A DNA stretch of 64,000 nt from the NCBI RefSeq assembly GCF_025947065.1, contig NZ_CP109994.1:1550001-1614000 (forward strand), read 5' to 3'. The position numbers and the translations under genes are program-made. This document shows, piece by piece, positions 44,473 to 64,000 of this stretch (position 1 is the stretch's first letter; the number at the start of each line of letters is the position of its first letter). A model generated the notes under the pieces. The model worked only from the letters and a program-made list of their open reading frames with translations, was not told the DNA's origin and did no database searches. The DNA is from Flavobacterium sp. N1736. Lineage in GTDB: Bacteria > Bacteroidota > Bacteroidia > Flavobacteriales > Flavobacteriaceae.

Positions 44473-45339
44473 ATGTTCGAGAAAAAAACTATATTGATTG
44501 GATGTGATAATACTATGGCACTTACCAGCGTACTAAATTCCTTGTCTGCCATTTCTGATTTTACGTTTTCGACCGTATCCGTTACAAGGGCAATTGATCT
44601 TAACAGAGCCATAAACTCGTTAAAGCCGGATTTAATCATACTTTGCTTTAAAAAAAACCAGCCCATTATAAATGATAATCCATTCAATTCAAACAGAATA
44701 GACATTCCTATCTTATGTTTAACTCAAAGTTATGAATGCGAATCATTATGCTGGTCGAAAAACTGTATTGTTTTTACGTATCCTTTCAATCAAATCAGTA
44801 ATGCCGATTTTTTACTGTCCCGAATTCGTTCTATTTTTCTTCTCAAAAAAACAGAATCAAAACCTGCCGTTCCCTCTTTTGCAGAAGCTGCTTATCAAAA
44901 AAATGATCTCAGTTATACCAAACAGCTAAGTCATTATGTGATGGAACTTGATCAAAAGGTTGAAGTACTTCGAAAAGTAAAAGAACGCATTTCTTACCTG
45001 TATCCAAACGTTGATGATTCGATTAGAAGAGAATTAATGTCGATCGCAAATTCTATAAAAGCAGTTGCAAATGACAAGAAACTCTGGGACGATTTTAAAA
45101 TTTATTTTGAGCAGTCAAATCCTGACTTTTTATTGTCACTCGCAAAAAAACACCCTTCGCTAAGCTCCAAAGACCTGAAATATTGCTGTTATATCAAAAT
45201 GAATATGAGCAATAACGATATTACCAATCTTTTGGGAATCAATCAGGAAAGCGTTCGAACTCACAAATACCGCCTAAAAAAGAAACTAACGCTGGAGAAA
45301 GAACAAGATATTATCTCGTATTTAAGAACTGTATCTTAA
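44473..45339 (+). CDS. LuxR-type regulator with degenerate receiver domain
   Basis: Start set at ATG 44473 (MFEKKTILIGCDNT); a TTG 12 bp upstream is less likely. The 288-aa protein has a response-regulator-like N-terminal fold (about 1-125), but the phosphoacceptor region KPDLIILCFKK has Cys where Asp is expected and the acidic pair after strand 1 is reduced to CD. A middle helical part (about 145-215) follows. The C-terminal domain DLKYCCYIKMNMSNNDITNL plus ESVRTHKYRLKKKL is a LuxR/GerE-type helix-turn-helix. It stands 521 bp before the eCIS operon on the same strand; control of that operon is inferred from position. Confidence 0.75.
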   Translation: MFEKKTILIGCDNTMALTSVLNSLSAISDFTFSTVSVTRAIDLNRAINSLKPDLIILCFKKNQPIINDNPFNSNRIDIPILCLTQSYECESLCWSKNCIVFTYPFNQISNADFLLSRIRSIFLLKKTESKPAVPSFAEAAYQKNDLSYTKQLSHYVMELDQKVEVLRKVKERISYLYPNVDDSIRRELMSIANSIKAVANDKKLWDDFKIYFEQSNPDFLLSLAKKHPSLSSKDLKYCCYIKMNMSNNDITNLLGINQESVRTHKYRLKKKLTLEKEQDIISYLRTVS

Positions 45340-45859: not shown

Positions 45860-46429
45860 ATGATACACAAGTCTTTACAATTTACGAATAAACTGCTTGA
45901 ACAGTTTTTAAAGAACCGTTTTGGGCTCGACGAAGACAAAACTGTCCTGAACTATCTTATTGATACCAACGGAAATTTCCCAAAAGTAAACCAGAATAAA
46001 GTCGTATTATCCTTAATTAATGTCGAAAAAGATACCAATCAGCCTTTTTATGTACAAAACAAAAGACTTGAAAACGGAAATTATTCCAGTTTTAATCCTG
46101 CCGAAAGATATAATATAGATTTGCTGATCAGCAGCAATTTTGACGATTATAACGAATCCCTAAAATTTCTGGATGCCGTTGTTTACTTTTTTCAGATAAA
46201 CAACTATCTTGATGCTTCCACATCTTCCTCAATTCCGGATGGTTTAACCAGACTCGAATTTGAATATGAAAAAATTTCCTATCACCAAATGCATAGTTTA
46301 TGGACCGCAATGGGAGCAAAATATCAGCCTTCGATCATGTACAAAATGAAACTCGTAAAAGCCCAGGCTCACGAAACTACAGAGATTATTGCAGGAATTA
46401 CCAAAATCACTAACGATGTAACGATATGA
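45860..46429 (+). CDS. eCIS tail terminator (Pvc16/Afp16, DUF4255)
   Basis: A 189-aa protein with the DUF4255/Pvc16_N pattern: an N-terminal helix (MIHKSLQFTNKLLEQFLKNR), VVLSLINVEKD, RYNIDLLISSNFDDYNESLK and a C-terminal YKMKLVKAQAH strand. In Afp and PVC particles this protein caps the tube and sheath at the distal end and sets length. Usually it is last or near last in eCIS operons; here it is first. The next gene starts within its stop (ATGA at 46426), so the two are coupled. Confidence 0.87.
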   Translation: MIHKSLQFTNKLLEQFLKNRFGLDEDKTVLNYLIDTNGNFPKVNQNKVVLSLINVEKDTNQPFYVQNKRLENGNYSSFNPAERYNIDLLISSNFDDYNESLKFLDAVVYFFQINNYLDASTSSSIPDGLTRLEFEYEKISYHQMHSLWTAMGAKYQPSIMYKMKLVKAQAHETTEIIAGITKITNDVTI

Positions 46430-47265
46430 TACACAGTAATTTCATAAAGACATTTAGTGTTATGGTGTATCATTCTTATTTTGATAACCACAAATGCAAT
46501 TGTATACACCTTATTCCCACCAATAAAACACAGCAATTACTGGATAAATTTGGCTTCAAAATAAATAAAGTTTCAAACGGATTCGATTTATTCTGCAATA
46601 CAACTTCCTCAATAACAACATTATTAGATTATATTTCAAAAACAGCTTCACAGGATTATTTTGAGTTTGATATAAAAACGTCCAATTCAAATTTTATATT
46701 TTTTACTGCATTACCTATTAATTGGCTCGGACAAATTATGTATTCAAGTCAAAATTCTAAAAACCAAAATAGCAAAGGCACAATAACACTCAGCCAAACC
46801 CTCGAAACAAATACAAGACCTGTTTTCTTAGGAAATTTGAAAGTGTATCTTGAAGACATTAAACAGAATCTCAGCAATAACACTTCCCTCCTTTTCGAAA
46901 TAAATTTTGAAGCCAGAGCAACCCAATGGCAATATTATATCATTAATAAAAATTCAGTTCCGCTAAATAACCCAACAATTTCAGGCAAAGAATCCATAGA
47001 ATTTAACGGTCCCAAAAATGTAACATTGCCAACAGGCGAAAAGTCCCTTTTGTTTACTTCGGGCGAAACCAATATTCTGCTAAGCGAAAAACCCAAATAC
47101 AAATTCGATTTACTGAATAAAAGTGCGTCATCAGCAACAAAGCAAAAAAATTCAAATGGCAAAATACTGATTAAAGGACTTCCCGTTCCGGATGTTTCCC
47201 GAATAGGAATAATCGAAAATAACCAACAAAATCAAGTTACATCACCAATGTATATCTATTTATAA
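46426..47265 (+). CDS. eCIS-associated protein of unknown function
   Basis: A 279-aa protein with no signal peptide and no domain I recognise. Its first 130 residues have mixed strands, including YFEFDIKTSNSNFIFFTALP; the rest contains RATQWQYYIINKN, KNVTLPTGEKSLLFTSGE and a C-terminal GLPVPDVSRIG, and ends VTSPMYIYL. Many Asn/Ser/Thr residues resemble phage-tail structural proteins. Because it is translationally coupled to the Pvc16-like cap gene and precedes the sheath gene by 36 bp, a structural role near the distal cap or in fibre attachment is plausible. It could instead be a chaperone. Confidence 0.6.
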   Translation: MIHSNFIKTFSVMVYHSYFDNHKCNCIHLIPTNKTQQLLDKFGFKINKVSNGFDLFCNTTSSITTLLDYISKTASQDYFEFDIKTSNSNFIFFTALPINWLGQIMYSSQNSKNQNSKGTITLSQTLETNTRPVFLGNLKVYLEDIKQNLSNNTSLLFEINFEARATQWQYYIINKNSVPLNNPTISGKESIEFNGPKNVTLPTGEKSLLFTSGETNILLSEKPKYKFDLLNKSASSATKQKNSNGKILIKGLPVPDVSRIGIIENNQQNQVTSPMYIYL

Positions 47266-47301
47266 AAAGAATTAAAAATGAACATTAAAAACTAAGAATC
47301 A

Positions 47302-48879
47302 ATGAATTTATCTACCATCCAAACACCTGGTGTGTATATTCAGGAATTAAATGCTTTTCCAAATTCGGTTGTGGCAGTTGCTACAGCGGTACCGGCATTT
47401 ATTGGATACACACCACAAGCCTCCTACGAGGGAAAATCGTACACGAACGTACCGGTACGAATCACATCGTTCTCTGATTTTCAGGCATTCTTTTGTTTAC
47501 CGGATCCTCCAGCACCTGCGAGCCCAAGTAAACAATATACGCCTGAATATTATTTAGTACAGCAAAAAAGTCAGCCCCTAAAAGGCGATTATATGCTGAT
47601 CAACGGATCATTTTACTCGATTGTGCCAGATCCAAACACCGTTTATTATTTGTACAATAGTGTGAGGCTTTTTTACGAAAATGGCGGCGGCGACGCTTAC
47701 ATTGTATCTGTTGGAAGTTATGGTGCCGCATCAAAAAAACCAATGACACCGGGAACTCCGCTTGTAAATCCAAACGTGCAGTTAAACGACTTATCGAATG
47801 GTCTTAGTTTATTGCTAAATGAGCCGGAACCAACCATGTACATCTGTCCTGAAGCTACTTTGCTAAGCTTAGAAAACAACGGAACACTTATGCAGGAAAT
47901 GCTGTTACAGTCAACAAAAATGCAAACAGCAATGTGTTTATTTGATATTATTGGCGGCGACGATCCTGACCCAATTTTGTATACACAGGATATTGCCAAC
48001 TTTAGAATGAACACAGGTTCTGTTGGATTAAACTACGGAATGGCGTATTATCCATTTATTGGAACTACGATCATGCAAAATTCGGATATCGATTATACGA
48101 ACCTGTTTGGCGGAGACATCAAACAATTAGAACCAATCATTAATCCGCCAAGTGCACCAAATGCAGCTGTTGCCTCGATACTTGCCAGTATTCAAAATCC
48201 TGACAGTACTTTGACCGTAACGCAAAATAACAACGCTTTAATGATTGCAAGTCCAATTTACGGGCTCATTTTAAAACATATATTGAGCGACGCTAATATT
48301 TTGCCTCCAAGCGGTGCAATGGCGGGAGTTATTACCACTGTCGATAACGCTGTAGGACCTTGGCAAGCGCCGGCAAATACCTCTATTGTTGGAGCAGGTT
48401 CATTGCCAATTAGTATTTCTGAAAGCCAGCAGGCTAATTTAAATGTCGATGCCGTTTCGGGTAAATCCATAAACGCAATTCGATTATTTAACGGACTTGG
48501 AATTTTAATCTGGGGATCAAGAACTCTGGACGGAAACAGTCAGGACTGGAGATATATTCCGGTAAGAAGAACCATGATTTTTCTGGAACAATCTTGTAAA
48601 CTGGCAGCTCAGGCTTATGTTTTTCAACCAAATGACAAAAATACGTGGGAAGCCGTAATTGCCATGATCAGCAGTTTTCTTACTTCGATCTGGAAACAAG
48701 GCGGTTTACAGGGAGCAAGTGCTTCAGACGCTTTTTCTGTAGCCTGCGGATTGGGTTCGACCATGACGGGAGACGATATTTTGAATGGTTTTATGAATGT
48801 TACCGTAAAAGTAGCCGTTGTACATCCTGCCGAATTTATCGTACTGACATTTCAACAGCAAATGGCAACTTCTAGTTAG
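47302..48879 (+). CDS. eCIS contractile sheath protein (Pvc2-4/Afp2-4 family)
   Basis: A 525-aa phage-tail-sheath protein. It starts with TPGVYIQELNAFPNSVVAVA and AVPAFIGYTPQA, typical of the N-terminal sheath domain, includes RLFYENGGGDAYIVSVG, and ends with the conserved C-terminal domain GLGILIWGSRTL, WRYIPVRRTMIFLEQS and MNVTVKVAVVHPAEFIVLTF. The sheath wraps the tube and contracts to drive it. Afp and PVC have three sheath genes; only one is seen here, though others outside the window are possible. It is the third gene of the operon. Confidence 0.95.
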   Translation: MNLSTIQTPGVYIQELNAFPNSVVAVATAVPAFIGYTPQASYEGKSYTNVPVRITSFSDFQAFFCLPDPPAPASPSKQYTPEYYLVQQKSQPLKGDYMLINGSFYSIVPDPNTVYYLYNSVRLFYENGGGDAYIVSVGSYGAASKKPMTPGTPLVNPNVQLNDLSNGLSLLLNEPEPTMYICPEATLLSLENNGTLMQEMLLQSTKMQTAMCLFDIIGGDDPDPILYTQDIANFRMNTGSVGLNYGMAYYPFIGTTIMQNSDIDYTNLFGGDIKQLEPIINPPSAPNAAVASILASIQNPDSTLTVTQNNNALMIASPIYGLILKHILSDANILPPSGAMAGVITTVDNAVGPWQAPANTSIVGAGSLPISISESQQANLNVDAVSGKSINAIRLFNGLGILIWGSRTLDGNSQDWRYIPVRRTMIFLEQSCKLAAQAYVFQPNDKNTWEAVIAMISSFLTSIWKQGGLQGASASDAFSVACGLGSTMTGDDILNGFMNVTVKVAVVHPAEFIVLTFQQQMATSS

Positions 48880-48932
48880 TCAAATAAATACTCTAGTAAA
48901 TCAAGTAAATTTTTAATTTAAAATAAAATATT

Positions 48933-49406
48933 ATGCCACCACCAGATGACGGAAGCGCACAAGGCGCAACATGGCCGATGCCAAAGTTTAGGTTCGAAGT
49001 AGACCTTGGAACAGAATTGACAAAAGTAGCTTTTCAGGAAGTTACAGGAATGGATGTCGAAAATCAAATTATAGAATATCGTAAAAGTAACAGCCCGCTT
49101 TTTTCTGTAGAAAAAATGCCCGGTATTACCAAATACGGAAATATTACTATGAAACGAGGGATTTTTGTAAATGATAATACTTTTTGGGACTGGCATCAGC
49201 AAGTCGTAATGAATACGATTAAAAGAAGAACAGTTATTATCAAATTATTAGACGAAAAAGGCGGCGTTACCATGCAATGGACACTTAATAATGCATGGCC
49301 AACTAAAATTACCAGTACCGATTTAAAATCAGATGGAAATGAAGTTGCGGTCGATACCATAGAAATTGCACACGAACAACTCATCATAAAAAATGGTGGC
49401 AAATAG
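48933..49406 (+). CDS. eCIS inner tube protein 1 (Pvc1/Afp1, gp19-like)
   Basis: A 157-aa T4 gp19-like tube protein. Visible: WPMPKFRFEVDLG, FQEVTGMDVENQIIEYRKSN, KYGNITMKRGIF, TVIIKLLDEKGGVTMQWTLN, NAWPTKITSTDLKSDGNEVA and IEIAHEQL. These are the strands and turns of the Hcp-like tube fold. Tube hexamers stack inside the sheath and carry cargo. The next tube gene overlaps by 14 bp. Confidence 0.93.
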   Translation: MPPPDDGSAQGATWPMPKFRFEVDLGTELTKVAFQEVTGMDVENQIIEYRKSNSPLFSVEKMPGITKYGNITMKRGIFVNDNTFWDWHQQVVMNTIKRRTVIIKLLDEKGGVTMQWTLNNAWPTKITSTDLKSDGNEVAVDTIEIAHEQLIIKNGGK

Positions 49407-49863
49407 TGATTATCCGGTTAGCTTTTATTTTACACTTTCGTTTGCAGGTGTAGATGCGGCTTTCAAAGAGGTATCTGGAATTTCTAAAGAATTAAGTATA
49501 GAAGAAATTGTTTGTGGAGGCGAAAACAGGTTTAAATACCGCCTCCCAACTGTTTCTAACAGCCAGAACTTAGTACTAAAAAGAGCCATTGTACCCGTTG
49601 GATCGTTGTTGATAAACTGGTGTTCGAGTTGTATCGATCAGGGATTATCAAACGCAATTCAGCCGCATAATGTCATACTAAAACTGCTTAACGCAAATGG
49701 TATTGTATGTATGCAATGGACTTTTAATAATGCTTATCCGGTAAAATATGCCGTTTCTGACTTAAACTCTCAGGAAAGCAATATTGCAATTGAAACGATT
49801 GAACTTGCTTACACGTATTTTGATATTTCGTCAAAAACAGATTTTGATAAACTTTTTATTTAA
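49393..49863 (+). CDS. eCIS inner tube protein 2 (Pvc5/Afp5, gp19-like)
   Basis: A 156-aa second tube-type protein related to the preceding one: YPVSFYFTLSFAGVDAAFKE, KYRLPTVSNSQNLVLKRAIV, VILKLLNANGIVCMQWTFNN, AYPVKYAVSDLNSQESNIAI and IELAYTYFD. Loops differ from tube 1 and match the Afp5 position, where the protein joins tube and baseplate. Start at 49393 overlaps tube 1 by 14 bp. The small DUF5908 gene follows after 8 bp. Confidence 0.9.
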   Translation: MVANSDYPVSFYFTLSFAGVDAAFKEVSGISKELSIEEIVCGGENRFKYRLPTVSNSQNLVLKRAIVPVGSLLINWCSSCIDQGLSNAIQPHNVILKLLNANGIVCMQWTFNNAYPVKYAVSDLNSQESNIAIETIELAYTYFDISSKTDFDKLFI

Positions 49864-49871
49864 AAATAATT

Positions 49872-50042
49872 ATGCCAATAGAAATACGAGAATTAATTAT
49901 TAAAACAGAAATCGTAACAACAAATACGAAGAATTCTTCTGTGGTGAAAGAAAAAGAATTATCGCTTTTAAGAAAACAGGTTCTGGAAGAATGCAAAAGA
50001 TTAATCGCCGAAAAAAATCAAATAAATAGCTATAAACGTTAG
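49872..50042 (+). CDS. Small eCIS protein (Pvc6/Afp6-like, DUF5908)
   Basis: A 56-aa frame between the second tube gene and the LysM gene. It begins MPIEIRELIIKTEIVTT, the pattern of DUF5908 proteins that occupy this place in eCIS operons, and continues with a charged helix (KEKELSLLRKQVLEECKRLI). It starts 8 bp after the tube 2 stop. The corresponding Afp6/Pvc6 proteins are small and their role in the particle is poorly known. Supported by position, start pattern and lack of any other gene in the gap. Confidence 0.8.
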   Translation: MPIEIRELIIKTEIVTTNTKNSSVVKEKELSLLRKQVLEECKRLIAEKNQINSYKR

Positions 50043-50134
50043 CAACAAAAAAAATCAGTTTTTATCCGCGTTTCACTTTAGTGATCCGTCTCATCAGCGT
50101 AATTAATTACCCCATTAATAAAAAATAAAAAAAA

Positions 50135-50809
50135 ATGGCAAGTCTGGAACCAATGAAAATAACAGGATACACAGATGAGGATTTTCAAAATAAATTCTCA
50201 GGAGATCCGTATGCCTTCATGATAAACCCTGACACCATCAAAATGCAAAAAAGCATTGAATACAATGAACAGCAGGCTCCAGCAACAAGCTCGGCATCAC
50301 AAAAATATAAAAGTACCCCAAGTGATAAACTAACTTTTGAAATGGTTATTGACTGTACCGGCGTCGTAGATTCGAAACGTATCGATATGAACAAAGAAAT
50401 AACCGCTTTAGAAACGATTATTTACACATATAACGGTAAAATTCACCGTCCGAATTTTGTAAAAATACAATGGGGACAGAATATTACATTTAATGGAGTT
50501 CTGGAATCTATCGATGTCTCTTACACCCTGTTTAAACCAGACGGAAGCCCTTTACGAGCCAAAATATCATTGTCATTCAGCCAGTATATTTCTCCAAAAA
50601 CAGTGACCATGCAAGACGCTCCGGAATCGCCGGATCTTACGCATATTGTCACTGTTTCTGAAGGAATGTCCCTGCCTCAGCTTTGCTTACAAACCTGGAA
50701 CGACGATTCTCTATACATACAAGTGGCAGAATTTAACGGCTTAAACAAATTCAGAAACCTAAACGGTATCAGCAAACTAATATTTCCTCCTGTAAATACA
50801 GCAAATTAA
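50135..50809 (+). CDS. eCIS LysM baseplate hub protein (Pvc7/Afp7)
   Basis: A 224-aa protein. Residues 1-165 hold the Afp7 N-terminal domain (MKITGYTDEDFQNKFSGDPY, YAFMINPDTI, LTFEMVIDCTGV, FVKIQWGQNITFNGVLESID, PLRAKISLSFSQY). A LysM-like segment (about 168-222) contains HIVTVSEGMSLPQLCLQTWN and YIQVAEFNGLNKFRN ending LIFPPV. This is the gp53-like adaptor linking tube and spike. Its stop overlaps the spike start (TAATG). Confidence 0.9.
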   Translation: MASLEPMKITGYTDEDFQNKFSGDPYAFMINPDTIKMQKSIEYNEQQAPATSSASQKYKSTPSDKLTFEMVIDCTGVVDSKRIDMNKEITALETIIYTYNGKIHRPNFVKIQWGQNITFNGVLESIDVSYTLFKPDGSPLRAKISLSFSQYISPKTVTMQDAPESPDLTHIVTVSEGMSLPQLCLQTWNDDSLYIQVAEFNGLNKFRNLNGISKLIFPPVNTAN

Positions 50810-52608
50810 TGAGCACTTCAACCGAAATAAAAAGTGGCGGAGTTGTCACCTATTCAATCCTCGTTGATGGAAATGCGATAGAAGATACCTATCCTGTTTA
50901 CTCTATTCATGTCGAAAAAAAAGTAAACCGAATTTCGATTGCAAAAATTATAATTCTCGACGGAGAAGCCAATACAGGCAAGTTTGTTGCAAGTTCCTCG
51001 GCTACTTTTGTTCCCGGCGCCACCGTAAATATAAAAGCAGGTTATGATGCTGTAAACGTGACTATTTTTCAGGGAATTATTATGAGTCAGGAAATTAGAA
51101 TTGACTCCATATTAGGCTCTGCCTTAGAAATTGAATGCCGTGATGCAGCCGTAAAAATGATTGTAGGACGCAAAAGCCTTACATATTCCAATAAAAAAGA
51201 CAGCGATATTATTACATCAATTATAGGAACGTATTCCGGATTAACATCAGATGTTGCCGCAACAACAACACAATGGCCGGAACAAGTACAATATTATGTA
51301 ACCGATTGGGATTATATTTTGTCTCTTGCCGAAGCAAACGGCTTAATCGTAACCACCATAAACGGAAAAGTTACCGTACAAGCGCCCGATAAAAGCACAA
51401 CTTCTGTACTTACCGTATTATACGGCGATAATCTGCTTGAATTTAATGCCAGACTTAATGCCACAACGCAATTAGGCAACGTAACATCAAATACCTGGGA
51501 TTATAAAACGCAGGCTTTGGTCAATAGTTCTGCAACGCCAAATGTAGCCGGAGCAGGAAATTTATCATCTAAAAAACTTTCTGATGTAATCGGGCTTTCG
51601 GCATTTGAGTTACAAACTTCGGCACCTTTAGAAACCGCCGATTTAACCAATTGGTCAAAAGCACAAATCATTAAAAGTGAATATTCTAAAATTACAGGCG
51701 AAGCAAAATTTCAGGGAACAAGCTTAGTCGATCCTGGAAAATACATGACATTTAATGGTGTTGGCGATCGCTTTAACGGAGATTATTTAATAGGCGGAGT
51801 TGTGCACGATTTATCGCTGGGAAACTGGGTTTCAGAAGTGACATTAGGACTTTCGCCTTTTTGGTTTACCGAAGAACCCGATGTGATGTCGCCGCCCGCT
51901 TCAGGATTAATTCCCGGGGCAAGAGGACTTTTTAACGGAACTGTAAAACAAATGTACAACGATCCTGATTCGCAATACCGAATTCTGGTCGAAGTTCCTT
52001 TATTTGATGCCAATGGCGCAGGAATCTGGGCAAGACTTTCTAATTTTTATTCGACCAGCGGAGCAGGTTGCTTTTTTTTACCCGAAGTTGGAGACGAAGT
52101 TATTTTGGGATTTCTAAATGAAGATCCGCGTTTTCCGGTAATACTTGGAAGTTTGTACAGCTCATCAAAAATAAAACCATTTACAGGATTAGATCCAAAC
52201 GAAAAAAATACCATAAAAGCGATCGTTTCAAAATCCGGAATCTCCGTTCAGTTTGATGATGAAAATAAAATCTGGACCGTTGCAACGCCAGGTAAAAACA
52301 CCATCATTATAAGCGATAAAGACAAACAAATTACCATAAAAGATGAAAATCAAAATAGTATCGTCATGTCACAAAGCGGAATTGATATGTCAAGCCAAAA
52401 AAGTATCACGATTTCGGCACAGGAAACAGTCACAATAAAAGGAACACAAGGCGTTTCGATTGAGGCAAGCGCCGGCGATGTCGGAATAAAAGGAATGAAC
52501 ATCAAAGAAAATGCAGATATGCAATATTCTGCACAAGGCGGACAAATGGCGCAAGTTTCCGGCGGAATGGAATTAACGCTGAAAGGCGCAATGGTAATGA
52601 TTAATTAA
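50809..52608 (+). CDS. eCIS spike protein (Pvc8/Afp8, VgrG-like)
   Basis: A 599-aa VgrG-type protein. The N-terminal gp27-like hub includes SIHVEKKVNRISIAKIIILD, WDYILSLAEANGLIVTTING and NVTSNTWDYKTQA. The gp5-like OB domain (about 368-450) has GLFNGTVKQMYNDPDSQYRI, VGDEVILGFLNEDPRFPVIL and GSLYSS. The tail is a beta-helix of short repeats (SIVMSQSGIDMSSQKSITIS, TVTIKGTQGVSIEASAGDV) and ends KGAMVMIN, the standard needle. No extra effector domain follows. The PAAR gene is next after 12 bp. Confidence 0.93.
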   Translation: MSTSTEIKSGGVVTYSILVDGNAIEDTYPVYSIHVEKKVNRISIAKIIILDGEANTGKFVASSSATFVPGATVNIKAGYDAVNVTIFQGIIMSQEIRIDSILGSALEIECRDAAVKMIVGRKSLTYSNKKDSDIITSIIGTYSGLTSDVAATTTQWPEQVQYYVTDWDYILSLAEANGLIVTTINGKVTVQAPDKSTTSVLTVLYGDNLLEFNARLNATTQLGNVTSNTWDYKTQALVNSSATPNVAGAGNLSSKKLSDVIGLSAFELQTSAPLETADLTNWSKAQIIKSEYSKITGEAKFQGTSLVDPGKYMTFNGVGDRFNGDYLIGGVVHDLSLGNWVSEVTLGLSPFWFTEEPDVMSPPASGLIPGARGLFNGTVKQMYNDPDSQYRILVEVPLFDANGAGIWARLSNFYSTSGAGCFFLPEVGDEVILGFLNEDPRFPVILGSLYSSSKIKPFTGLDPNEKNTIKAIVSKSGISVQFDDENKIWTVATPGKNTIIISDKDKQITIKDENQNSIVMSQSGIDMSSQKSITISAQETVTIKGTQGVSIEASAGDVGIKGMNIKENADMQYSAQGGQMAQVSGGMELTLKGAMVMIN

Positions 52609-52620
52609 AAATTAAAAAAT

Positions 52621-52920
52621 ATGCCTCCAGCAGCAAGACTAACAGATTTTCACGAATGTCCAATGGTAACTCCCGCAGTACCGCCCATTCCGCATGTTGG
52701 CGGACCAATAGTGGGTGCCGGAGAACCAACGGTTATAATAGCAGGATTACCGGCAGCCAGAGTTGGCGATATGCTGGTTTGTGTAGGCCCGCCGGATTCT
52801 ATAATAAAAGGATCGGCAACGGTTATGATAGGCGGAGTTCCCGCCGCAAGAATGGGAGATCAAACCGCTCACGGAGGCTCAATACTTCTGGGAGCATTTA
52901 ATGTTATGATAGGTGGATAA
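52621..52920 (+). CDS. eCIS PAAR tip protein (Pvc10/Afp10)
   Basis: A 99-aa PAAR protein with two GxPAAR motifs (GLPAARVGDM and GVPAARMGDQ) and likely zinc ligands among H11, C13, H25, C54 and H84. It makes the sharp tip on the spike. It has no cargo domain. Gene order here is spike, PAAR, gp25, whereas Afp/PVC have gp25 before PAAR. Confidence 0.92.
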   Translation: MPPAARLTDFHECPMVTPAVPPIPHVGGPIVGAGEPTVIIAGLPAARVGDMLVCVGPPDSIIKGSATVMIGGVPAARMGDQTAHGGSILLGAFNVMIGG

Positions 52921-53347
52921 AAAAGCAAACAATAAAGAAAACGCCTTTTTAGGTTCAGGATGGTCATTTCCTGTGTCATTTTCTGCGGGAAATTCACAGC
53001 TTAATATGTCGGCAAATGCGAGTAATATAAACGAATCCATACATATTATTCTCAATACCCGCAAAGGCGAACGTACACTTGAATCCAATTTTGGTTCTGG
53101 TTTACAACAGTTTATGTTTAAAAAAATTGACAATACACTAAAAGGCGAAATTATAGAAACCATTAAGTTCTCGCTCTTACGCTACGAACCCAGAATACTG
53201 GTTCAGGATGTAAAAGTGATAGCAACAGATACGCAAAACGGCGTAATACAAATCATGATTTCTTATATCTATTCGCAAACAAACACAAGACATAATTATG
53301 TATATCCTTTTCATTTAAAAGAAGGAACCAATTTACCCCGAAAATAA
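52913..53347 (+). CDS. eCIS baseplate gp25 protein (Pvc9/Afp9)
   Basis: A 144-aa GPW/gp25 wedge protein starting with GTG at 52913, 8 bp inside the PAAR gene; no ATG upstream gives a better start. Features: FLGSGWSFPVSF, SINESIHIILNTRKGERTL (with the conserved EXR-type R-x-x-x pattern), FGSGLQQFMF and EIIETIKFSLLRYEPRILVQ. It holds the sheath to the baseplate. Its stop overlaps the next start (TAATG at 53347). Confidence 0.92.
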   Translation: MDKKANNKENAFLGSGWSFPVSFSAGNSQLNMSANASNINESIHIILNTRKGERTLESNFGSGLQQFMFKKIDNTLKGEIIETIKFSLLRYEPRILVQDVKVIATDTQNGVIQIMISYIYSQTNTRHNYVYPFHLKEGTNLPRK

Positions 53348-56300: not shown

Positions 56301-57102
56301 AACCAACGGCTTTACGGCTCAGCGAACCGGAATTTCCTTTTTAGCAAGCACACAAAGTCCGCAAATTGATGGTAATGTTATTAGCAAACCACAAATTACG
56401 ATACCGCAGATAGCGTCAATTATACAGCCATTTCCATCTTTTGGAGGGAAAGCTGCAGAAAACGAAACCAATAGAAACCAGCGTGTCAGCAACACCATAA
56501 AAACAAAAAACAGATCAGTTACACCCGAGGATTATTACAAACTAATACTCGAAAATTTTAATGAAATCTATTATTTAAAAATCGTAAACAAACAATATCA
56601 AAATACCTGCAATGTGTATTTGACAAAAAAAGTTCCGGCAGAAAGCGAAACAGATGCTTTTAATCCGTTGGTTACCAATTGTCTTGAAAATGAAATCCAA
56701 CTTTTTTTACAGCAAAATGCATCGCCTTTTACCACCATAAATGTTTCCAATTTTAATTTGGAATATGTCATTGTGACGGCTCAGATCGAAATTGAAAGCG
56801 GTTATCAGGAAGAACTTATCCGAAAAAATGTAAATCAGGCTTTAAAAATTCATTTATCGCCCTGGATTAGCAGTTCATCGCCTCAAATTGAAATCGATCA
56901 GCCCTTAACTGATGCCAAAATAAGCACTTTTTTACAAACTATTGAAGGCGTAAGTGCAGTGAATAATGTATCGTTTTCGACCTATTTTTTTAATTCAGTA
57001 AGCAAATTGCAAACCGATTGCAAAACCAATAAAACAATGCTTAAAGCATACGGACAAGCAACACTTTTGGTAACAGCACCAAATCATAACATCAATTTCT
57101 AG
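53347..57102 (+). CDS. eCIS baseplate wedge protein (Pvc11/Afp11, baseplate-J family)
   Basis: A 1251-aa baseplate wedge protein. The long N-terminal half is mixed helical (for example DNEMYDLKNYIIHEVKTKLS). A middle region carries short beta segments. The C-terminal 250 residues have the baseplate-J/gp47 pattern: RNQRVSNTIKTKNRSVTPED, YYKLILENFNEIYYLKIVNK, LEYVIVTAQIEIESGYQEEL and ALKIHLSPW. Longer than the Afp11 family average, mainly in the N-terminal part. Pairs with the following Afp12-like protein to make the wedge ring. Confidence 0.87.
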   Translation: MIVIDQNSAINSLNESLVPSAHLIDGRKELDWLYFLTEFSKLINFYNDKNTIEGNWNPFLLKDPVFLMASISKTNYKNLHATYKTSCAEIQKLSQQPDTANLSANALDKLFDHLTAIYKIIERWTHYMQIDNEMYDLKNYIIHEVKTKLSIDFWAIQAFRQYLYNLSAKGLFMAGISYHEILSFDNLLWSINKDKRPFWQIFGFETEQDIFTAINKSTTVCLNILTTIGDRLFNFLEIIIHHAVNEFKKLSHKKSKFPDTTLLRSFVHALKAQQEQLNGISQKHLDFYYTEILKQTELPAFADTVFLCSTLAKNDTVFTLPQGTLFNAGVDAQKNPILFASQQNVNLNPAVIKSVQTLSYQNQFNTPSFSLQTIAKPTTIQKDPNNKIMGWSTFGELNPDVNLPVNPEKNVTQIGISFASPILLLREGKRTITLRLEFNTTVDISLLQSATYYLSTQKSWLNLQPNQLKIQTNNSSANTTATITITLAPTDIAIEPFLINPDGLKCDFPMFKIMFQTIANPVNPPKITSITIDVKVLDVKTFQLYNDFGELNTKNPFPPFGPIPLVNSNFIIGNNEIFSKPLDSFCVEINWDKRPSDFETYYAAYNAYLKILNTPTDTKQRKSLARLLSSIRHKKPDLPDSKVPFSNASFTINFNLLQNKKWQDLKMCKTEIELSEIVFVPKEDNCNPIFLFDPEKGDPKVPFTSTSVSSYISISNLKIADDATTPGPIPGMQPDPNIQNQPLKFTDTSSSGFVKMSLTGPEYGFGSELYPNIVADIALQNGNLISMAKGGKVDKFVAAANLPFAPKIKTFTADYDASVTYKLDNSATDYPFQYFIYSPFITYKTFDSSELSQTTLNSAITGFSKENASGGFLLYPSFDYSGALFIELDSLICNSILSLYFQLARNSTAITDGESVTYFYLNNNGWNKIEPLSDGTNQFKCSGIIELPIPTDYSNNKNFMPGESNWISIAVSGDPESYSKTTFLQTNGFTAQRTGISFLASTQSPQIDGNVISKPQITIPQIASIIQPFPSFGGKAAENETNRNQRVSNTIKTKNRSVTPEDYYKLILENFNEIYYLKIVNKQYQNTCNVYLTKKVPAESETDAFNPLVTNCLENEIQLFLQQNASPFTTINVSNFNLEYVIVTAQIEIESGYQEELIRKNVNQALKIHLSPWISSSSPQIEIDQPLTDAKISTFLQTIEGVSAVNNVSFSTYFFNSVSKLQTDCKTNKTMLKAYGQATLLVTAPNHNINF

Positions 57103-57110
57103 CGTTTAAA

Positions 57111-59840
57111 ATGGATACAATCAATCAAATAACAAAAAAGCAACTTCCTTTACATCAGGATTTTACTTCCCTAAAAACGGAAGCGATTGCTTATATCCAA
57201 AAACATATAGGAAGCGAATGGACAAACTTTAACCCAAGTGATCCCGGAATGACCATTCTGGATCAGTTTTGTTATGCGCTTACAGAATTGGGTTATTGTA
57301 CTGATTTTAGTATTCCTGACATTTTAACCAATATTGATGGAGAAATTGAAATTGAAAATCAGTTTTATCTGCCAAATGAAATCCTGACTACTTCGCCATA
57401 TACGATCAACGATTATAAAAAATATGTAATCGACGGAATAGAAAATATAAACAATGTTGTTATTGTGCCGCAAGCCAGCAATATTTTTCCTTTTAATAAA
57501 ATATATCAGGTTTATGTATACATAAATCCAAATATTGAGGATACACTTGATCGCATAAACATTTGTAAATCGGCATTTTATTATTTAAATAAAAGCCGAA
57601 ATATTGGTGAAACTTTTAATGTTCCGATAGCGCTTGCAACCATAAACTGCACAATAAGCGGTAAAATAGAAATTGAAAAAGAAACCAATCAATACGCTGT
57701 TTTATTAGCCTTGCAAGACAGTATTCGCAATTTTGTATTTCCGAAAATAACACAAAAAGGGTTCGAAAACTTACAACAATCGGGATATTCTGCTGCTGAA
57801 ATTTTTGATGGTCCGGCGTTGAAAAACGGCTGGATTTTGACCGAAGATTTAATCGATAAAAACGACGCTGTACAAACCATAGATTTAATTCCCGTAATCG
57901 AATCTGTAAACAATGTTGTTTCTATAACCGGATTACAGCTTTTTCAGGAACAAAAAAATGTTTCAGTTCTTACGGCAGCGCCAGATCAGATGTTGTTTAT
58001 CGATATTCTGACATCATACAAAAATAAAACGCTGATATTGAGCTGTAACGGCAAAGATGTGCCATTTGATGCTTTTGGTCCGTTAAATATCAACACTGAT
58101 AATTTTGAAGAAACGACTGCGGTTTTAAACAAAAAAGACAATTCGAAACTCCCAAAAAGCAAATTCAGGGATATAAATACGTATTTCTCGATTCAAAACA
58201 CATTTCCGCAGCAATACGGAATTGGTTTTGATACGTTAGAAGATCACTCAAAACCCGTACAAGTTGGGCAATCACGACAATTAAAAGGTTATTTAACCTT
58301 GTTTGATCAAATATTAGCCAATCAGTTTTCGCAATTGGCTAATATTTCTAAACTATTTTCTTTTAAAAATTCGCTTTGCGGTGCTCCTTCAGATGAGGAA
58401 ACTTTTTTTGCTTTAAAAGATAAATACGAGCAAACGCATTTAGAATATCCCGTTCCGTACAAAATGTTTGCGCCAAGTTATTTTTATCAGTCCTTATATA
58501 CTGTGCCGCATATTCAGCCATTATTAAAAAACAGTACGACATTCGATTATACGTATGGCAACGAATCTGCGGCAGAATTAAAAGAAAAAAGCTGGCAGGA
58601 ATATCAGCAAGATCCGTACAATCCGTACATATTTGGTTTGATGAAACTCATGGATGAGGAAAATACAAACCTGAAACGACGAAATAAAATACTCAATCAT
58701 TTGCTTGCCAGACACGGCGAATCGCCAAATGTGGTCGATGCGCTTATTGACGACACGGTTTATACGGGCGATAAACGAAAAGATCAGATTATATTAAAAA
58801 GTTTGTATTTGCAAAATCTGGGCTTGTTGTCGTACAACAGACAAAAAGGATATAATTTTTTAAGCGCCTCAAAAATGACTGCCGATGGAAATTGGGATTT
58901 ACCGGAAATAAAAGAAAAACATTATCTGGAAATCAACGAAAATACCACCGATTTTATATTCAAATCAGAAAAAATAAACAAGAAAGAAAAACTAAGAAAA
59001 AAGGATTTTAATGATTTTTCAGGCTTTGAACTAAAACTGAATTTGATTTTTGGGTTACGCAATTTATACACCAATTTTATAAGTGAACAGTTAGATTCGA
59101 TCAAAGATAATCCTCAGGATTTGTCAAATGCAGCAACGTATAAAACCATTCAAAAAGCATTATGGTTTAAAGAAAAAAGAAACGGTATTGTTTTTCTGGA
59201 AACGGTTTTATTGCTCAATCAGCTCAAATTTGAATTGGAAATAATAAAAGAAAATCAGGTAAATCACGCTGTATACAGCATTCAAAACATAAGTTTTCAG
59301 GCGGTATCCAATATAAATTACACCTTAAATACGGTTGACGAAACCACATTAGACGCACAATTACAGCAAGGATTTTTGCAGGTTTCAGACATTAAATATG
59401 TTTTTAAAACAGAAACTGTTCCTATAGAAAATCAAAACAATTATGTAAAAACAGCTCATTCTAATTATGCGTTTAAAATCACAATTCCGTCAGAAAATCA
59501 GGCAACAACCATAAACGATTTGGTTTTTACAAAAAGTGTTTTGCTCTTATTTCCGGACTTTATTCCGGTTTTTAAAACACCTGAATTTAAAAAACGTTTA
59601 AAACAGTTTCTTAAAATCAGTATTCCGGCAAATGTAAGTTACGAATGCCTGTTTTTAAGCAGTGACGAATTAGATACTTTCATTCCAAATTTTATGCAAT
59701 GGCATGAAAGTCTGCGATATAAAGACGTAACAAATAACACGGCTGAAACCGATTTTAAAATAAATCCGGTTCAGTCAGCGATGAATCTCATTAGTAATTT
59801 AACCACAATTTTAGCCACAAAAAATGGAAGAAATAAATAG
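57111..59840 (+). CDS. eCIS baseplate wedge protein (Pvc12/Afp12-like)
   Basis: A 909-aa protein 8 bp after the J-like gene. Its first part reads LKTEAIAYIQKHIGSEWTNF and NPSDPGMTILDQFCYALTEL, the opening common to Afp12-type wedge proteins, followed by repeated J-like strands (NDYKKYVIDGIENINNVVIV). Near 395-420 is QLKGYLTLFDQILANQFSQL, also conserved in the family. The C-terminal 350 residues are less distinctive. It overlaps the tape-measure gene by 17 bp. Confidence 0.85.
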   Translation: MDTINQITKKQLPLHQDFTSLKTEAIAYIQKHIGSEWTNFNPSDPGMTILDQFCYALTELGYCTDFSIPDILTNIDGEIEIENQFYLPNEILTTSPYTINDYKKYVIDGIENINNVVIVPQASNIFPFNKIYQVYVYINPNIEDTLDRINICKSAFYYLNKSRNIGETFNVPIALATINCTISGKIEIEKETNQYAVLLALQDSIRNFVFPKITQKGFENLQQSGYSAAEIFDGPALKNGWILTEDLIDKNDAVQTIDLIPVIESVNNVVSITGLQLFQEQKNVSVLTAAPDQMLFIDILTSYKNKTLILSCNGKDVPFDAFGPLNINTDNFEETTAVLNKKDNSKLPKSKFRDINTYFSIQNTFPQQYGIGFDTLEDHSKPVQVGQSRQLKGYLTLFDQILANQFSQLANISKLFSFKNSLCGAPSDEETFFALKDKYEQTHLEYPVPYKMFAPSYFYQSLYTVPHIQPLLKNSTTFDYTYGNESAAELKEKSWQEYQQDPYNPYIFGLMKLMDEENTNLKRRNKILNHLLARHGESPNVVDALIDDTVYTGDKRKDQIILKSLYLQNLGLLSYNRQKGYNFLSASKMTADGNWDLPEIKEKHYLEINENTTDFIFKSEKINKKEKLRKKDFNDFSGFELKLNLIFGLRNLYTNFISEQLDSIKDNPQDLSNAATYKTIQKALWFKEKRNGIVFLETVLLLNQLKFELEIIKENQVNHAVYSIQNISFQAVSNINYTLNTVDETTLDAQLQQGFLQVSDIKYVFKTETVPIENQNNYVKTAHSNYAFKITIPSENQATTINDLVFTKSVLLLFPDFIPVFKTPEFKKRLKQFLKISIPANVSYECLFLSSDELDTFIPNFMQWHESLRYKDVTNNTAETDFKINPVQSAMNLISNLTTILATKNGRNK

Positions 59841-62800
59841 CCATATTGTATCGCGCCTAAAGTGGAATACTACTTTTGACCAGAAAAACGAGGCTTACAG
59901 ACTTCAGGAACGCCTGAGTTCGTGGAGCAAAATTTCGTTGCCCGGAGAAGTCGCTTCGATATTTAATGAGCTTTGCCCGACGGAACAAAGCTGGAGAATT
60001 CAGTCTTTAGAATTAGATCTGGGTTTGTGTGATTACAACGATCTTGAATTTGATCTGAGTGCCAAGATTCGCCATTTACTGCGCGAAAAAATCGCCGAAC
60101 TTATTATTTATCAAAACAGTCAGAAACAAAATCTGATTACGGTTTATAACAAAGAAAAATCGACTCTGGAAAACCTGACCGTTTTTTTACTGAAAGGTTA
60201 TTTCCCTTGGAATTATCAAAATAAAGAGGTCTCTGTAAATCAAATTATGTCTGAATTACTCCAAAATAATGTGGCTGAAATTCTTGCCGTTATTAAAAAA
60301 GAAGGAATTGCACATCAGGAAGTTCGCAAGAGAATTTCGTGGCAGTTTGACGAAAAAAATATCACGAAAATAATTGCAGCTCTTGAACCCAATAACAGCG
60401 CTTCGATCATTGAATTTAGTTCGATTATGGTGAATTTGCAGGTTAAAGAAACAATTATTCAAACGAGTGCATCGAGTTTCAAAAAGAATCTATGGTTTTT
60501 TATTCTGAACTTTTTGCTTTTAGAACGCGGCACGCTTTTCAATAAACTTGCTTTTATGAAAAGCAGTATTCTGCAAATGGCAAATCACTATAACATTGCT
60601 TATTTTGATTTGATTTTGCTGATCGAAAATACGATTGTAAAGCTGTCTGATAAAACAACTCAGAATAATAATTTTATTGAGTCGCTAAAAATACTGACGC
60701 ACGAATACGAAGCGCAGAAAAAGCAAAATTTTAAAACGGAATCAAAACCGGATTACTGGACTGTTTTTGAGGAATTATTGACAAACGCAAAAGAGAGAAA
60801 ATCTAAAATTGCAAAAGACAATTTAAACGAATTGATTATTGCGCTGAATAATGAGAATAAAACCAAGTTTAATCGCATTGTAAACCGCATTTTAACATCA
60901 GAAAATGCGTGTATTTCCCTGATTCAGGATTTAGATGAAACGGCTATAAAAATCCTTTTTTCTAAGCTGGACAAAACGTCTTCTTCGCTGAATATGGAAA
61001 CGATTACGTACCTGAATAAGCTGAGCAGTTCGTTTAAACTAAGAACAAATAACAAGGTTTTATGGGAAATTGGGATTACTTTTTTAATCAGAAATAAAAA
61101 TGCGGATAATGCCGCGCTGCTTTTGTTTTGTATCAAAGAATTAAGCAAAAGAAACAACTTAAATCCTGAATATTTATTGGAATTGTTTACGAGTGCCAAA
61201 ATTCCGGCGTCGATAAAAAACAATAATTCGATTGTGGTTTATACGAATTTGAATGCAGTTTACCGAAGTGAAATAAACCGAAACAGTTCAAATTATCCTG
61301 CCGTTCACTTTAAAAATCTGGTTGTAAAACTAGAAACCGAATTGCAAAAAAATGGGGCGAAAAGTGTCTTTTTTGTCGATTTGCAAAGATCGCTAATCAA
61401 AAATATTTACCAGCATCCTAAAATGGCTTTTGAAGTGATGCTTTCGTATGGAAATAAGGAATTTTTAAAGAAAATGATTCCGCTTGTTCTAAATCGCGAA
61501 TTGCTGCAATTGCTTATAAAAACAACGAATTACAAGAAAACAAAACTGGTTGAAACGATTCAGATTGTGTATGAAATTTTAAATGCAAAGGAGAAATTTG
61601 ATTTGCCGGATGAACTTCTTACGGATGATTTATTGCTGTTTGGAATTGAGGAAATTCTGCTGCATCCAAAACACAATTCGTCGTTGTTTCTTGAAACTGT
61701 AATTCTTCGTTTATCGGGAAAAGTAACGAATACAAAACGCAGCGATTATTTTCATTTTATAACAAAATTATTGCAGTCGAAAAAGATCAAATCATTTGGA
61801 GTTTCGGTTAAAAAGAATTTTCTCGTTCAGCTTAAAAATAACAATTCTATTGATATTGTTGAGCTCGCTTTATTGATTGAAAGTACGTCGCAGCAAGCGC
61901 AAACCGAATTATCATATTTATTGGTCAACAATTTTAATGATTCGAGATTTATTGCGCTTCGAAAAGAAGACAAAAAACAAAGCGAAATCATTTTGCATTA
62001 TTTTTTGAAGAATGGAATTACGATCAAAAATAATTGGATTAAAAAACAAATAAGCAGTATTGAAAAACAATTTAAATCAATTTCAAAAACCAAAATAACA
62101 ACTGATTTAAATGTAATTTTCTGGAAAACAATTTTAAACTACAACGCTTATAAAGGAAACGAAATACTGCTTGAGAAACTGATTGAAAAAGCGTTTTCTG
62201 TTTATCTAAAAAACAATTATAACATTCAAAATCAAAGCAATATCAACGAAAAATATTTTAATGCTATGGAATATAATTCTGAAATTAAAACTGATTTTGA
62301 TGATGAAGACGCAAACGATTTTGAAATTGAAGATGAAATAATTCTCGAAAAAAGTGTAGAAACAAGTCAGATTGAGCTGCTGTTTTCGGGACAAAATTTA
62401 TCTGAACAGGAAAAATACGATTGGTGTTTGCGCATTGTATGCCAGAAACAAATTCCGACTGGTTTTGCGGTTTCGGGAGCTTTTGAAATTGAAGTTCTGG
62501 TGAATGAAATCATCATAAAATTTCCGGAAATGTTCTCTGAAATTATCCGAAAAGAATTTATTCCCGAAGCACAAATAGACTGGTTAAGCCGCAATATCAG
62601 GTTTAATAATTTGTGCGCGGCAATTGGTCATTTGGATAAAAACAGGGAATCGTATTTAAAAATCCTGGAGCGTTTTCATCATACACTCGGATTGATTTCG
62701 ATACGCGGAATTGCTCCAAAAGATATGCAGAGTCTGTTATTACGAAAATTGCTCAGAGCGGCAATAAATGATAATTGGAGACTTATTTCGATTGATAAAA

Positions 62801-63531
62801 TCTGGAATGAACTGATTTGGGAAGTGGTGACGAAAAAAGGGGTTCTGAAAAAGAATTTCATCGCAGATATTGAGAAATATATGTATCAGCTTCCGCCCTC
62901 TTTACAGCTTAGTTTTAAGGAAGTCCTGAATAGTGAAAAGCAAATTATTCAAAAGACGATAGAAACGGAACTGATTTCGAAAATTGAATTGATTAAAACA
63001 AATTCAACTTCTAAAAAGCCTCTTACAGAAGGAATTGCAGTGCGAAATGCCGGAATCGTGATTTTAAACAGTTACGTAGTTATGCTTTTTGAGCGGTTAA
63101 ATTTAGTGGTGGAAAATGAATTTAAAACTATTGAAAACCAAATTAGCGCTGCTCAATATCTGCAATATGTTGTAACCGGATTAACAAAAACGGAAGAGCA
63201 TTTTTTGCCTCTGAATAAAGTTTTATGCGGTTTGTCGCTTATGCATACCATTCCTGATGAAATAGAAATTTCGGCAGAAAATAAGATCCTGATAAACGGT
63301 TTGATACAGGCGGCTATTTCGTTTTGGACAGATATTGGCGATTGTTCTGTTGATGGTTTTAGAGGTAACTGGCTCGTTAGAGACGGTTTACTGGTAGAAC
63401 TGGAAGATCGCTGGGAATTAACGGTCGACAAAAAAGCGTATGATGTTTTGATTAACAGATCGCCTTTTGCTTTCTCGATCATCAAATATCCGTGGATGGA
63501 GAAACCGTTGCACGTAAACTGGCCTTATTAA
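59824..63531 (+). CDS. eCIS tape-measure-type protein (CIS_TMP family)
   Basis: A 1235-aa, mainly helical protein. The first 100 residues match the contractile-injection-system tape-measure family: VSRLKWNTTFDQKNEAYRLQ, ERLSSWSKISLPGEVASIFN, LCPTEQSWRIQSLELDLG and LEFDLSAKIRHLLREKIAEL. An acidic segment lies near 820-845 (FDDEDANDFEIEDE). The C-terminal part ends WMEKPLHVNWPY, with GFRGNWLVRDGLLV before it, a conserved close in this family. It should set tube length and aid assembly; the predicted particle length could be tested against 1235 residues. Confidence 0.85.
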   Translation: MEEINSHIVSRLKWNTTFDQKNEAYRLQERLSSWSKISLPGEVASIFNELCPTEQSWRIQSLELDLGLCDYNDLEFDLSAKIRHLLREKIAELIIYQNSQKQNLITVYNKEKSTLENLTVFLLKGYFPWNYQNKEVSVNQIMSELLQNNVAEILAVIKKEGIAHQEVRKRISWQFDEKNITKIIAALEPNNSASIIEFSSIMVNLQVKETIIQTSASSFKKNLWFFILNFLLLERGTLFNKLAFMKSSILQMANHYNIAYFDLILLIENTIVKLSDKTTQNNNFIESLKILTHEYEAQKKQNFKTESKPDYWTVFEELLTNAKERKSKIAKDNLNELIIALNNENKTKFNRIVNRILTSENACISLIQDLDETAIKILFSKLDKTSSSLNMETITYLNKLSSSFKLRTNNKVLWEIGITFLIRNKNADNAALLLFCIKELSKRNNLNPEYLLELFTSAKIPASIKNNNSIVVYTNLNAVYRSEINRNSSNYPAVHFKNLVVKLETELQKNGAKSVFFVDLQRSLIKNIYQHPKMAFEVMLSYGNKEFLKKMIPLVLNRELLQLLIKTTNYKKTKLVETIQIVYEILNAKEKFDLPDELLTDDLLLFGIEEILLHPKHNSSLFLETVILRLSGKVTNTKRSDYFHFITKLLQSKKIKSFGVSVKKNFLVQLKNNNSIDIVELALLIESTSQQAQTELSYLLVNNFNDSRFIALRKEDKKQSEIILHYFLKNGITIKNNWIKKQISSIEKQFKSISKTKITTDLNVIFWKTILNYNAYKGNEILLEKLIEKAFSVYLKNNYNIQNQSNINEKYFNAMEYNSEIKTDFDDEDANDFEIEDEIILEKSVETSQIELLFSGQNLSEQEKYDWCLRIVCQKQIPTGFAVSGAFEIEVLVNEIIIKFPEMFSEIIRKEFIPEAQIDWLSRNIRFNNLCAAIGHLDKNRESYLKILERFHHTLGLISIRGIAPKDMQSLLLRKLLRAAINDNWRLISIDKIWNELIWEVVTKKGVLKKNFIADIEKYMYQLPPSLQLSFKEVLNSEKQIIQKTIETELISKIELIKTNSTSKKPLTEGIAVRNAGIVILNSYVVMLFERLNLVVENEFKTIENQISAAQYLQYVVTGLTKTEEHFLPLNKVLCGLSLMHTIPDEIEISAENKILINGLIQAAISFWTDIGDCSVDGFRGNWLVRDGLLVELEDRWELTVDKKAYDVLINRSPFAFSIIKYPWMEKPLHVNWPY

Positions 63532-63556
63532 AGTTTTAAATATCAAAAATCAATGT

Positions 63557-63607
63557 CAAAATTCAATAGCAAAATTCAATAGCAAAATTCAATAGTAAAA
63601 ATCAATA
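63557..63607. repeat. Short 13-bp tandem repeat
   Basis: Three exact copies of CAAAATTCAATAG (63557-63569, 63570-63582, 63583-63595) and a degenerate fourth, within a wider CAAT-rich low-complexity stretch 63541-63630. It lies in the gap after the tape-measure gene. A CAGATT module follows at about 63637-63665. Confidence 0.85.
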
Positions 63608-63728
63608 TCAGTATCAATGGCAATATCAATCATAAAAAAAATCTGCTTAATCTGCGAGAAAAAACATTTAACACAACAATAAAATACTAAGTCTTTAAAA
63701 TAAAAATTAATCAATAAAAAGAACCATT

Positions 63729-64000
63729 ATGAACAGCTACAGTGAAAATTTACATTCCAGTGTATTGGCTTCATTAGAAAGCCAGGAAATGAGTAAGAAA
63801 AAATTGGATTCCCAATTAAATTCTTCCATGTTTACACTTTATTATGCCGAAGGCGCAGAGATTATTGCCAACGACAAACTTGCTTCTGCAACAAAAAAAT
63901 ACAACAAATCGCAGAAGGTTAAAGAACAGGCGGTTAAAACTAAAAATATTTCGACCAATATTGTGATGTCGTCTACACAGCAAAATAGTTATACCTCACA
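63729..64000 (+). CDS. Unrecognised protein, N-terminal part (runs off the edge)
   Basis: Open frame from ATG 63729 to the end of the window (90 codons). It begins MNSYSENLHSSVLASLESQE and continues with a helical, Lys/Ser/Gln-rich sequence (AEGAEIIANDKLASATKKYN). No signal peptide or known domain. It is 197 bp downstream of the tape-measure gene. In eCIS operons this place can hold an AAA ATPase (Pvc15) or accessory/cargo gene; the visible part has no Walker motif yet. Role unassigned. Confidence 0.65.
   Translation, partial: MNSYSENLHSSVLASLESQEMSKKKLDSQLNSSMFTLYYAEGAEIIANDKLASATKKYNKSQKVKEQAVKTKNISTNIVMSSTQQNSYTS

Follow-up and report, generated by a model that had tools for sequence, protein, structure and literature searches.

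Results

An extracellular contractile injection system operon in Flavobacterium sp. N1736

We analysed a 64-kb stretch of the Flavobacterium sp. N1736 genome (hereafter the window; G000:C1:1550001-1614000, in a genome of 5.1 Mb on a single contig) and the DNA to its right. The stretch carries an operon that almost certainly encodes an extracellular contractile injection system (eCIS). Right of the window, beside the ATPase gene of this operon, lies p307, whose product is predicted to have a gasdermin-type fold. This gene was beyond the view of an earlier note on the window, and we judged it the most interesting part of the locus. Genes right of the window are given in extended coordinates (genome position minus 1550000), and Pfam matches were counted over curated cut-offs. 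The genes are as follows.

44461..45339, plus strand: LuxR/GerE-type regulator, upstream of the operon (Pfam GerE 9.6e-05, 22.4 bits, slightly below the cut-off of 23.5)
45860..46429, plus strand: cap protein, Pvc16/Alg16A-like, DUF4255 (Pvc16_N 1.3e-21; PDB cap proteins 9r9n, 7adz)
46426..47265, plus strand: 279-aa protein in the cap-adaptor position (assigned by position only)
47302..48879, plus strand: sheath, 525 aa (Phage_sheath_1C 6.7e-14; PDB 9r9h 9e-111, 7adz 1.8e-78, 7b5h 4.7e-75)
48933..49406, plus strand: inner tube 1 (Phage_T4_gp19 3.8e-43)
49393..49863, plus strand: inner tube 2 (Phage_T4_gp19 1.7e-33)
49872..50042, plus strand: small DUF5908 protein (DUF5908 1.4e-11)
50135..50809, plus strand: CIS_tube protein, hub/tube initiator (CIS_tube 6.6e-49)
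50809..52608, plus strand: spike, VgrG-like (Phage_base_V 3.1e-17; Phage_GPD below cut-off)
52621..52920, plus strand: PAAR tip (PAAR_motif 9.2e-24)
52913..53347, plus strand: gp25 wedge (GPW_gp25 2.7e-19)
53347..57102, plus strand: wedge protein, Alg11/gp6-like, 1251 aa (PDB 7b5h, All3317, 2.1e-59; 7aeb, Algoriphagus Baseplate_J protein, 4.3e-52)
57111..59840, plus strand: wedge protein, Alg12/gp7-like, 909 aa (PDB Alg12 1.8e-37)
59824..63531, plus strand: tape-measure protein (TMP), 1235 aa (CIS_TMP 1e-85)
63729-66230, plus strand, starting in the window (63729..64000): CC833, coiled-coil protein of 833 aa, candidate fibre
extended 66255-67085, right flank: CC276, coiled-coil protein
extended 67313-68236, right flank: p307, predicted gasdermin fold
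extended 68226-69599: AAA ATPase (AAA 1.8e-27)
extended 69920-70480 (L009 6920-7480), right flank: p186
extended 70541-70720: GH25 remnant of 59 codons, apparently broken
extended 70724-71809: cargo-type protein, 361 aa (no Pfam match)
extended 71836-73800: cargo-type protein, 654 aa (eCIS_core, DUF4157)
extended 73835-75874: cargo-type protein, 679 aa (eCIS_core and a non-specific endonuclease domain)

Direct reading of the open reading frames (ORFs) confirmed the 13 plus-strand genes with overlaps or very short gaps described in the earlier note; they span 45860-63531 without internal stops, and the distance from one gene to the next ranges from -17 to +92 bp. Its assignments of cap, sheath, two tubes, DUF5908 protein, spike, PAAR, gp25, two wedges and tape measure were borne out by Pfam or PDB matches, the two wedge proteins having no Pfam match and being identified via solved baseplates of contractile injection systems (CIS). 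For the gene called a LysM hub, the hub role is upheld by the CIS_tube match, and the LysM label falls away, as nothing matched LysM at the threshold applied. Neither a family nor a PDB sequence match was found for the 279-aa product of the second gene. A 280-aa gene occupies the equivalent position in a second eCIS of this genome, with no BLAST similarity between the two; we take Alg16B to be the fitting label, as an analogue by position only.

The operon, previously called nearly complete, continues past position 64000, and the rest of it was found in the right flank. The sequence shows a complete eCIS operon from about 45860 to extended position 75874, comprising the particle genes, the ATPase gene and, at the 3' end, the cargo block. 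The AAA ATPase, on whose presence the earlier note had made its reading depend (Pvc15/Afp15 in eCIS naming), is 46% identical to that of the second eCIS over 382 residues (BLAST). No T6SS membrane-complex, ClpV or phage-head family occurred among the proteins scanned around the operon, the part of the genome covered by this search. With the ATPase present in the flank and no T6SS or phage-head family among the proteins scanned, the eCIS reading is supported.

Cargo genes, which were to be sought right of the window, were found there: three cargo-type genes, two with an eCIS_core match (E-values 2.9e-10 and 2.1e-10). All three products carry one or two N-terminal copies of a DNRxxS motif (70724-74100), and relatives have similar starts; this motif is a candidate loading leader. 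Next after the cargo block come genes for a response regulator and for a MarR regulator. The Pvc13 tail fibre sought in the same flank was not recognisable, nor was an Afp13-type or Alg19 fibre. CC833 is a candidate only; with its variable length and conserved ends it may serve as fibre or tether.

Three tandem tail-collar-like proteins are encoded about 12 kb past the last cargo gene (L010 5254-6930; G000:C1:1638254-1639930), the Collar family having been tested for the first of them. The gap between the TMP and CC833 genes (window 63535-63687) holds a dispersed repeat sequence with 24 more matches elsewhere in the genome. A relative of the LuxR/GerE regulator is also found upstream in G102, G103, G121 and G006 (75-81% identity), and passages of PMC8213781 report GerE regulators within eCIS operons.

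The gene set around the ATPase gene is conserved

From 82 confirmed stretches we kept 79 distinct p307 loci in named genomes, Flavobacterium, Pedobacter, Mucilaginibacter, Kordia, Dokdonia, Tenacibaculum, Winogradskyella, Echinicola and metagenome bins among them. A record labelled Beijerinckiaceae is probably a misassigned contig, and a pattern-based scan found no viral contigs among the loci. The p307-type eCIS occurs in several Kordia species, including L098 (Kordia algicida OT-1).

Neighbourhoods were counted in 78 loci (L109 was omitted, its p307 not being called by the ORF picker). CC276 was present in 68 of them, CC833 in 67, AAA and TMP in 66 each, Alg12 in 61, p186 in 60 and eCIS_core-type cargo in 59; as the flanks extend to 10 kb at most, most of them do not take in the sheath. 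The direct neighbours of p307 are CC276 upstream (65/78) and the AAA gene downstream (66/78). In 65 of 66 loci the longest ATPase ORF starts no more than 30 bp from where p307 ends, and the median overlap is 14 bp. In most p307 loci the ATPase gene is followed by p186, whose product matches neither Pfam nor NCBIfam and has diverged more quickly than those of the genes around it (46-55% identity, four relatives). On these gene orders and similarities, we showed that CC833, CC276, p307 and p186 form a conserved set around the ATPase gene of this Bacteroidota eCIS clade.

A family survey of 397 genomes yielded p307 in five and any sheath match in 73, and all five p307 genomes belonged to the 12 whose sheath is full-length and of the window type (a cut that we set at 65% identity or higher in this survey and at 69% or higher in the genus survey). 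Among 199 genomes of the genus, p307 and TMP were searched in 17 with a sheath, where p307 and full-length TMP co-occur in the same eight; gene contexts were examined for 10 of these relatives.

Reduced loci and the sheath tree

Several genomes have a window-type sheath without wedge genes beside it. Sheath, tube 1, spike and PAAR are present in G030 and G168; in G094 the sheath comes with a shorter tube 1; the sheath stands alone in G033 and G141 (that of G141 just 42-44% identical); and G153 has the sheath and a TMP end with a stop. The L111 and L112 stretches contain sheath, tube, spike, PAAR, CC833, CC276, p307, AAA, p186 and a 171-aa TMP end, with no wedge gene in either (L111 starts near a contig end). 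L107, L110, L132 and L089 also belong to this reduced set, in some of which the TMP end measures 171-178 aa. Alg12 was not found in the genomes of L111, L112 and L107; in G402, the genome of L110, a full-type Alg12 lies away from that locus. A search for gp25 found none in G033, G153 and G141 and only a weaker gp25, elsewhere in the genome, in G401, G403 and G404.

For reduced-locus genes, dN/dS was computed between the G030, G168 and G094 copies at one chromosomal place. Sheath values were 0.129 (G168/G094), 0.094 (G030/G168) and 0.104 (G030/G094); G030/G168 gave 0.103 for the spike, 0.123 for PAAR and 0.111 for tube 1, and the shortened tube of G094 gave 0.221 and 0.156. These low ratios suggest that the sheath, tube, spike and PAAR genes of the reduced loci are probably in use. 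A sheath tree, in which five labels came from the p307 and TMP searches alone (G151 and G024 as reduced; G077, G184 and G185 as full), separated the eight sheaths of genomes with p307 and full TMP from 14 others with a branch support of 98/98. Since the midpoint root lies on the very long branch of G141, the tree gives no direction of change.

A second eCIS in the same genome

The second eCIS lies on the minus strand at approximately G000:C1:4890898-4916855 (L032, L033), and is of the Algoriphagus type with a 698-aa sheath. BLAST identity between the two systems is 51% for the C-terminal part of the sheath, 52% and 41% for the tubes and 39% for the spike; no relatives of p307, CC833 or CC276 were detected in the second locus. 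The eCIS_core region of the first locus's cargo is matched by two proteins of the second, 1373 and 486 aa long.

p307 is predicted to have a gasdermin-type fold

Gasdermins are the hole-punching proteins of inflammatory cell death. The structural model of p307 probably has a fold of this type: the best 11 Foldseek rows and the best 23 VIA rows were all gasdermin or gasdermin-like entries. No 19-residue segment of the sequence is strongly hydrophobic (highest Kyte-Doolittle mean 0.95); the N-terminal region of p307 is basic (mean net charge +3 over 25 residues), and the protein is without the DNRxxS/eCIS_core leader of the cargo. Two alignments with overlapping members were used for such counts, A1 with 42 of 120 listed p307 relatives (of 416) and A3 with 41 of the 79 loci plus P0121; a third, A2, held 39 of 120 listed CC833 relatives (of 138).

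Discussion

A possible role of p307 in particle release

The exit route of most eCIS particles is largely open, with lysis assumed; passages of three papers state that the particles generally leave through lysis of the producer (PMC8894135, PMC12210884, PMC12961389). The best explanation of the locus as a whole, to which we give a probability of about 0.48, is that p307 opens the producer membrane for particle release. Its modelled gasdermin fold, the coupling to the ATPase gene, the position outside the cargo block and the missing cargo leader fit the membrane step of release, and a release role of p307 taken by itself seems to us to have slightly less than even odds.

Particles would assemble in the cytoplasm and be loaded with cargo, and p307 would be made together with the ATPase, with which its gene overlaps. 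It would then oligomerise in the inner membrane of the producer and open it, in place of the holin, which is the membrane step of a lysis cassette. The part of the endolysin would fall to a wall hydrolase, namely the GH25 of some relatives or else a host enzyme. In the boldest form, which we regard as rather unlikely, a Bacteroidota eCIS clade would have adopted a gasdermin-type pore protein for its own exit, and p307 rings in the producer's inner membrane would let intact, loaded particles pass, so that a pyroptosis fold would serve the export of a weapon and not immunity. According to parts of PMC12547243, the Vitiosangium gasdermin pore measures about 320 A inside and Bacteroidetes pores have 30-31 subunits, and parts of PMC8894135 describe a cap adaptor that brings the Algoriphagus cap to an outer diameter of about 164 A. 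By this analogy the whole particle could, on paper and baseplate width aside, pass a pore of Vitiosangium size.

A number of results weigh against release by p307 or against the fold on which it builds. Only one of five AlphaFold models, from a 42-row alignment, was good (74.5 vs 42-49); the Foldseek TM-scores of the gasdermin rows stayed below 0.5 (best 0.32 by query and 0.42 by target), and the VIA matches had an rmsd of 4 to 13 A. No PDB chain was matched by sequence profile up to E 10, and none of 42 members matched the Pfam Gasdermin profile at E 0.1; since this profile did not reach its cut-off in any of 198 Bacteroidota genomes, it may fail to detect bacterial forms. Most bacterial gasdermins carry a conserved N-terminal cysteine, as stated in passages of PMC12547243. 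A palmitoylation-type cysteine within the first 10 residues was absent from all 42 rows of both A1 and A3; within the first 25 residues, a cysteine was seen in one row of A1 and four of A3. As to a neighbouring activating protease, no family of caspase or trypsin type was matched in the operon; an HExxH sequence is present in eCIS_core cargo. In addition, of 15 Flavobacterium genomes whose sheath is of the window type (at least 69% identity), 7 have no p307, and in 7 of 78 loci, several on short contigs, p307 is flanked by none of the CIS genes tested (L072, L075, L108, L123, L128, L129, L130). The genomes of five of these seven have a sheath of some kind; in the other two (G395 and the metagenome bin G398) a sheath was not found. 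The solitary loci indicate that p307 can occur without its own eCIS, as a leftover or with a separate role. Finally, no GH25 partner was found in 50 of 63 loci; with such a muramidase gene near p307 in just 13, and a remnant that looks broken here, a fixed partner is not established.

Other explanations have to be weighed against release. p307 might ride on the particle or on CC833 and act on the target membrane as a breaching or docking part. Its inheritance together with the candidate fibre proteins CC833 and CC276, even where no wedge gene adjoins (L111, L112, L132, L089), would agree with this, and the basic N-terminal region suits membrane contact. However, the gene adjoins and overlaps that of the ATPase, outside the 3' cargo block, its product has no cargo leader, and the L107 and L110 copies have the spike and PAAR genes for neighbours but no coiled-coil pair. 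We consider such a role unlikely, if still the strongest competitor of release.

The gasdermin fold could also be a modelling error and p307 an unrelated eCIS accessory protein. The single good model, the low TM-scores and the missing sequence-profile match speak for this, but a random fold would hardly have yielded only gasdermin or gasdermin-like entries among the best Foldseek and VIA rows, and we hold an error to be improbable. Slightly less probable again is a gasdermin-like p307 without pore activity that serves in the structure or assembly of the particle, or as a chaperone of the ATPase; strong conservation, tight coupling to the ATPase gene and the lack of an N-terminal cysteine would be in line with it, whereas the solitary copies in the two genomes where no sheath was found would not. 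Least probable is that this is an ordinary eCIS with p307 and the coiled-coil pair as unremarkable lineage accessory genes: every core part is known and passages of PMC8213781 already list Flavobacterium among the genera with genomes holding more than one eCIS, but several Bacteroidota families have retained p307 at the same position.

If p307 does act in release, this would be the first known gasdermin-type role in a contractile injection system, as far as the openly licensed literature shows, and it would bear on the origin of the gasdermin pore family. With a conserved gene of predicted gasdermin fold so closely coupled to the ATPase gene of an eCIS clade widespread in Bacteroidota, the question of particle exit becomes testable.

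Comparison with known systems

AlgoCIS of Algoriphagus machipongonensis (PDB 7adz, 7aeb; PMC8894135) resembles the present system in cap, sheath, wedges and its Bacteroidota host, and parts of the same paper describe two DUF4157 cargo proteins, as in this locus. It differs in its sheath (692 aa vs 525 aa here) and in its fibre, no fibre of that kind being recognised here. In a BLAST comparison made against the Algoriphagus-type second locus of N1736, in place of the Algoriphagus genome, p307, CC833 and CC276 were without a match. The closest sheath (519 aa, 9e-111) belongs to the PDB deposits 9r9h, 9r9n and 9rce, in which one chain is named SalCis12 and the cap and both wedges match too; a search of the openly licensed PMC literature found no paper for them. 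By sequence profile, p307 is unmatched by any PDB chain, this set included. The Anabaena CIS (All33xx, 7b5h) is similar in sheath and wedge, but differs in being attached to thylakoids, as passages of PMC12210884 describe for a multicellular cyanobacterium.

p307 is predicted to share its fold with the bacterial gasdermins (7n51, 7n52, 8sl0, 9a84). Unlike these it lacks a cysteine among its first 10 residues, shows no sequence match to them and belongs to an eCIS operon, not to a defence island; a protease family of caspase or trypsin type was not matched in its operon. Among the matches listed from the openly licensed PMC literature we found no link between gasdermins and contractile injection systems or eCIS; PMC12948488 mentions both, separately.

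For the Afp cluster, passages of PMC12961389 give a predicted lysis cassette of endopeptidase, holin and lysozyme, a cassette named there for R-tailocins and Afp. Its predicted function, to open the producer and so set the particles free, is the one proposed here for p307. Unlike in Afp, the membrane step would be taken by a gasdermin-fold protein and not by a holin, and a lysozyme (GH25) occurs in only some relatives. The eCIS described here is a known kind of system, and the core gene p307, with its predicted gasdermin fold, makes the locus a variant of that kind.

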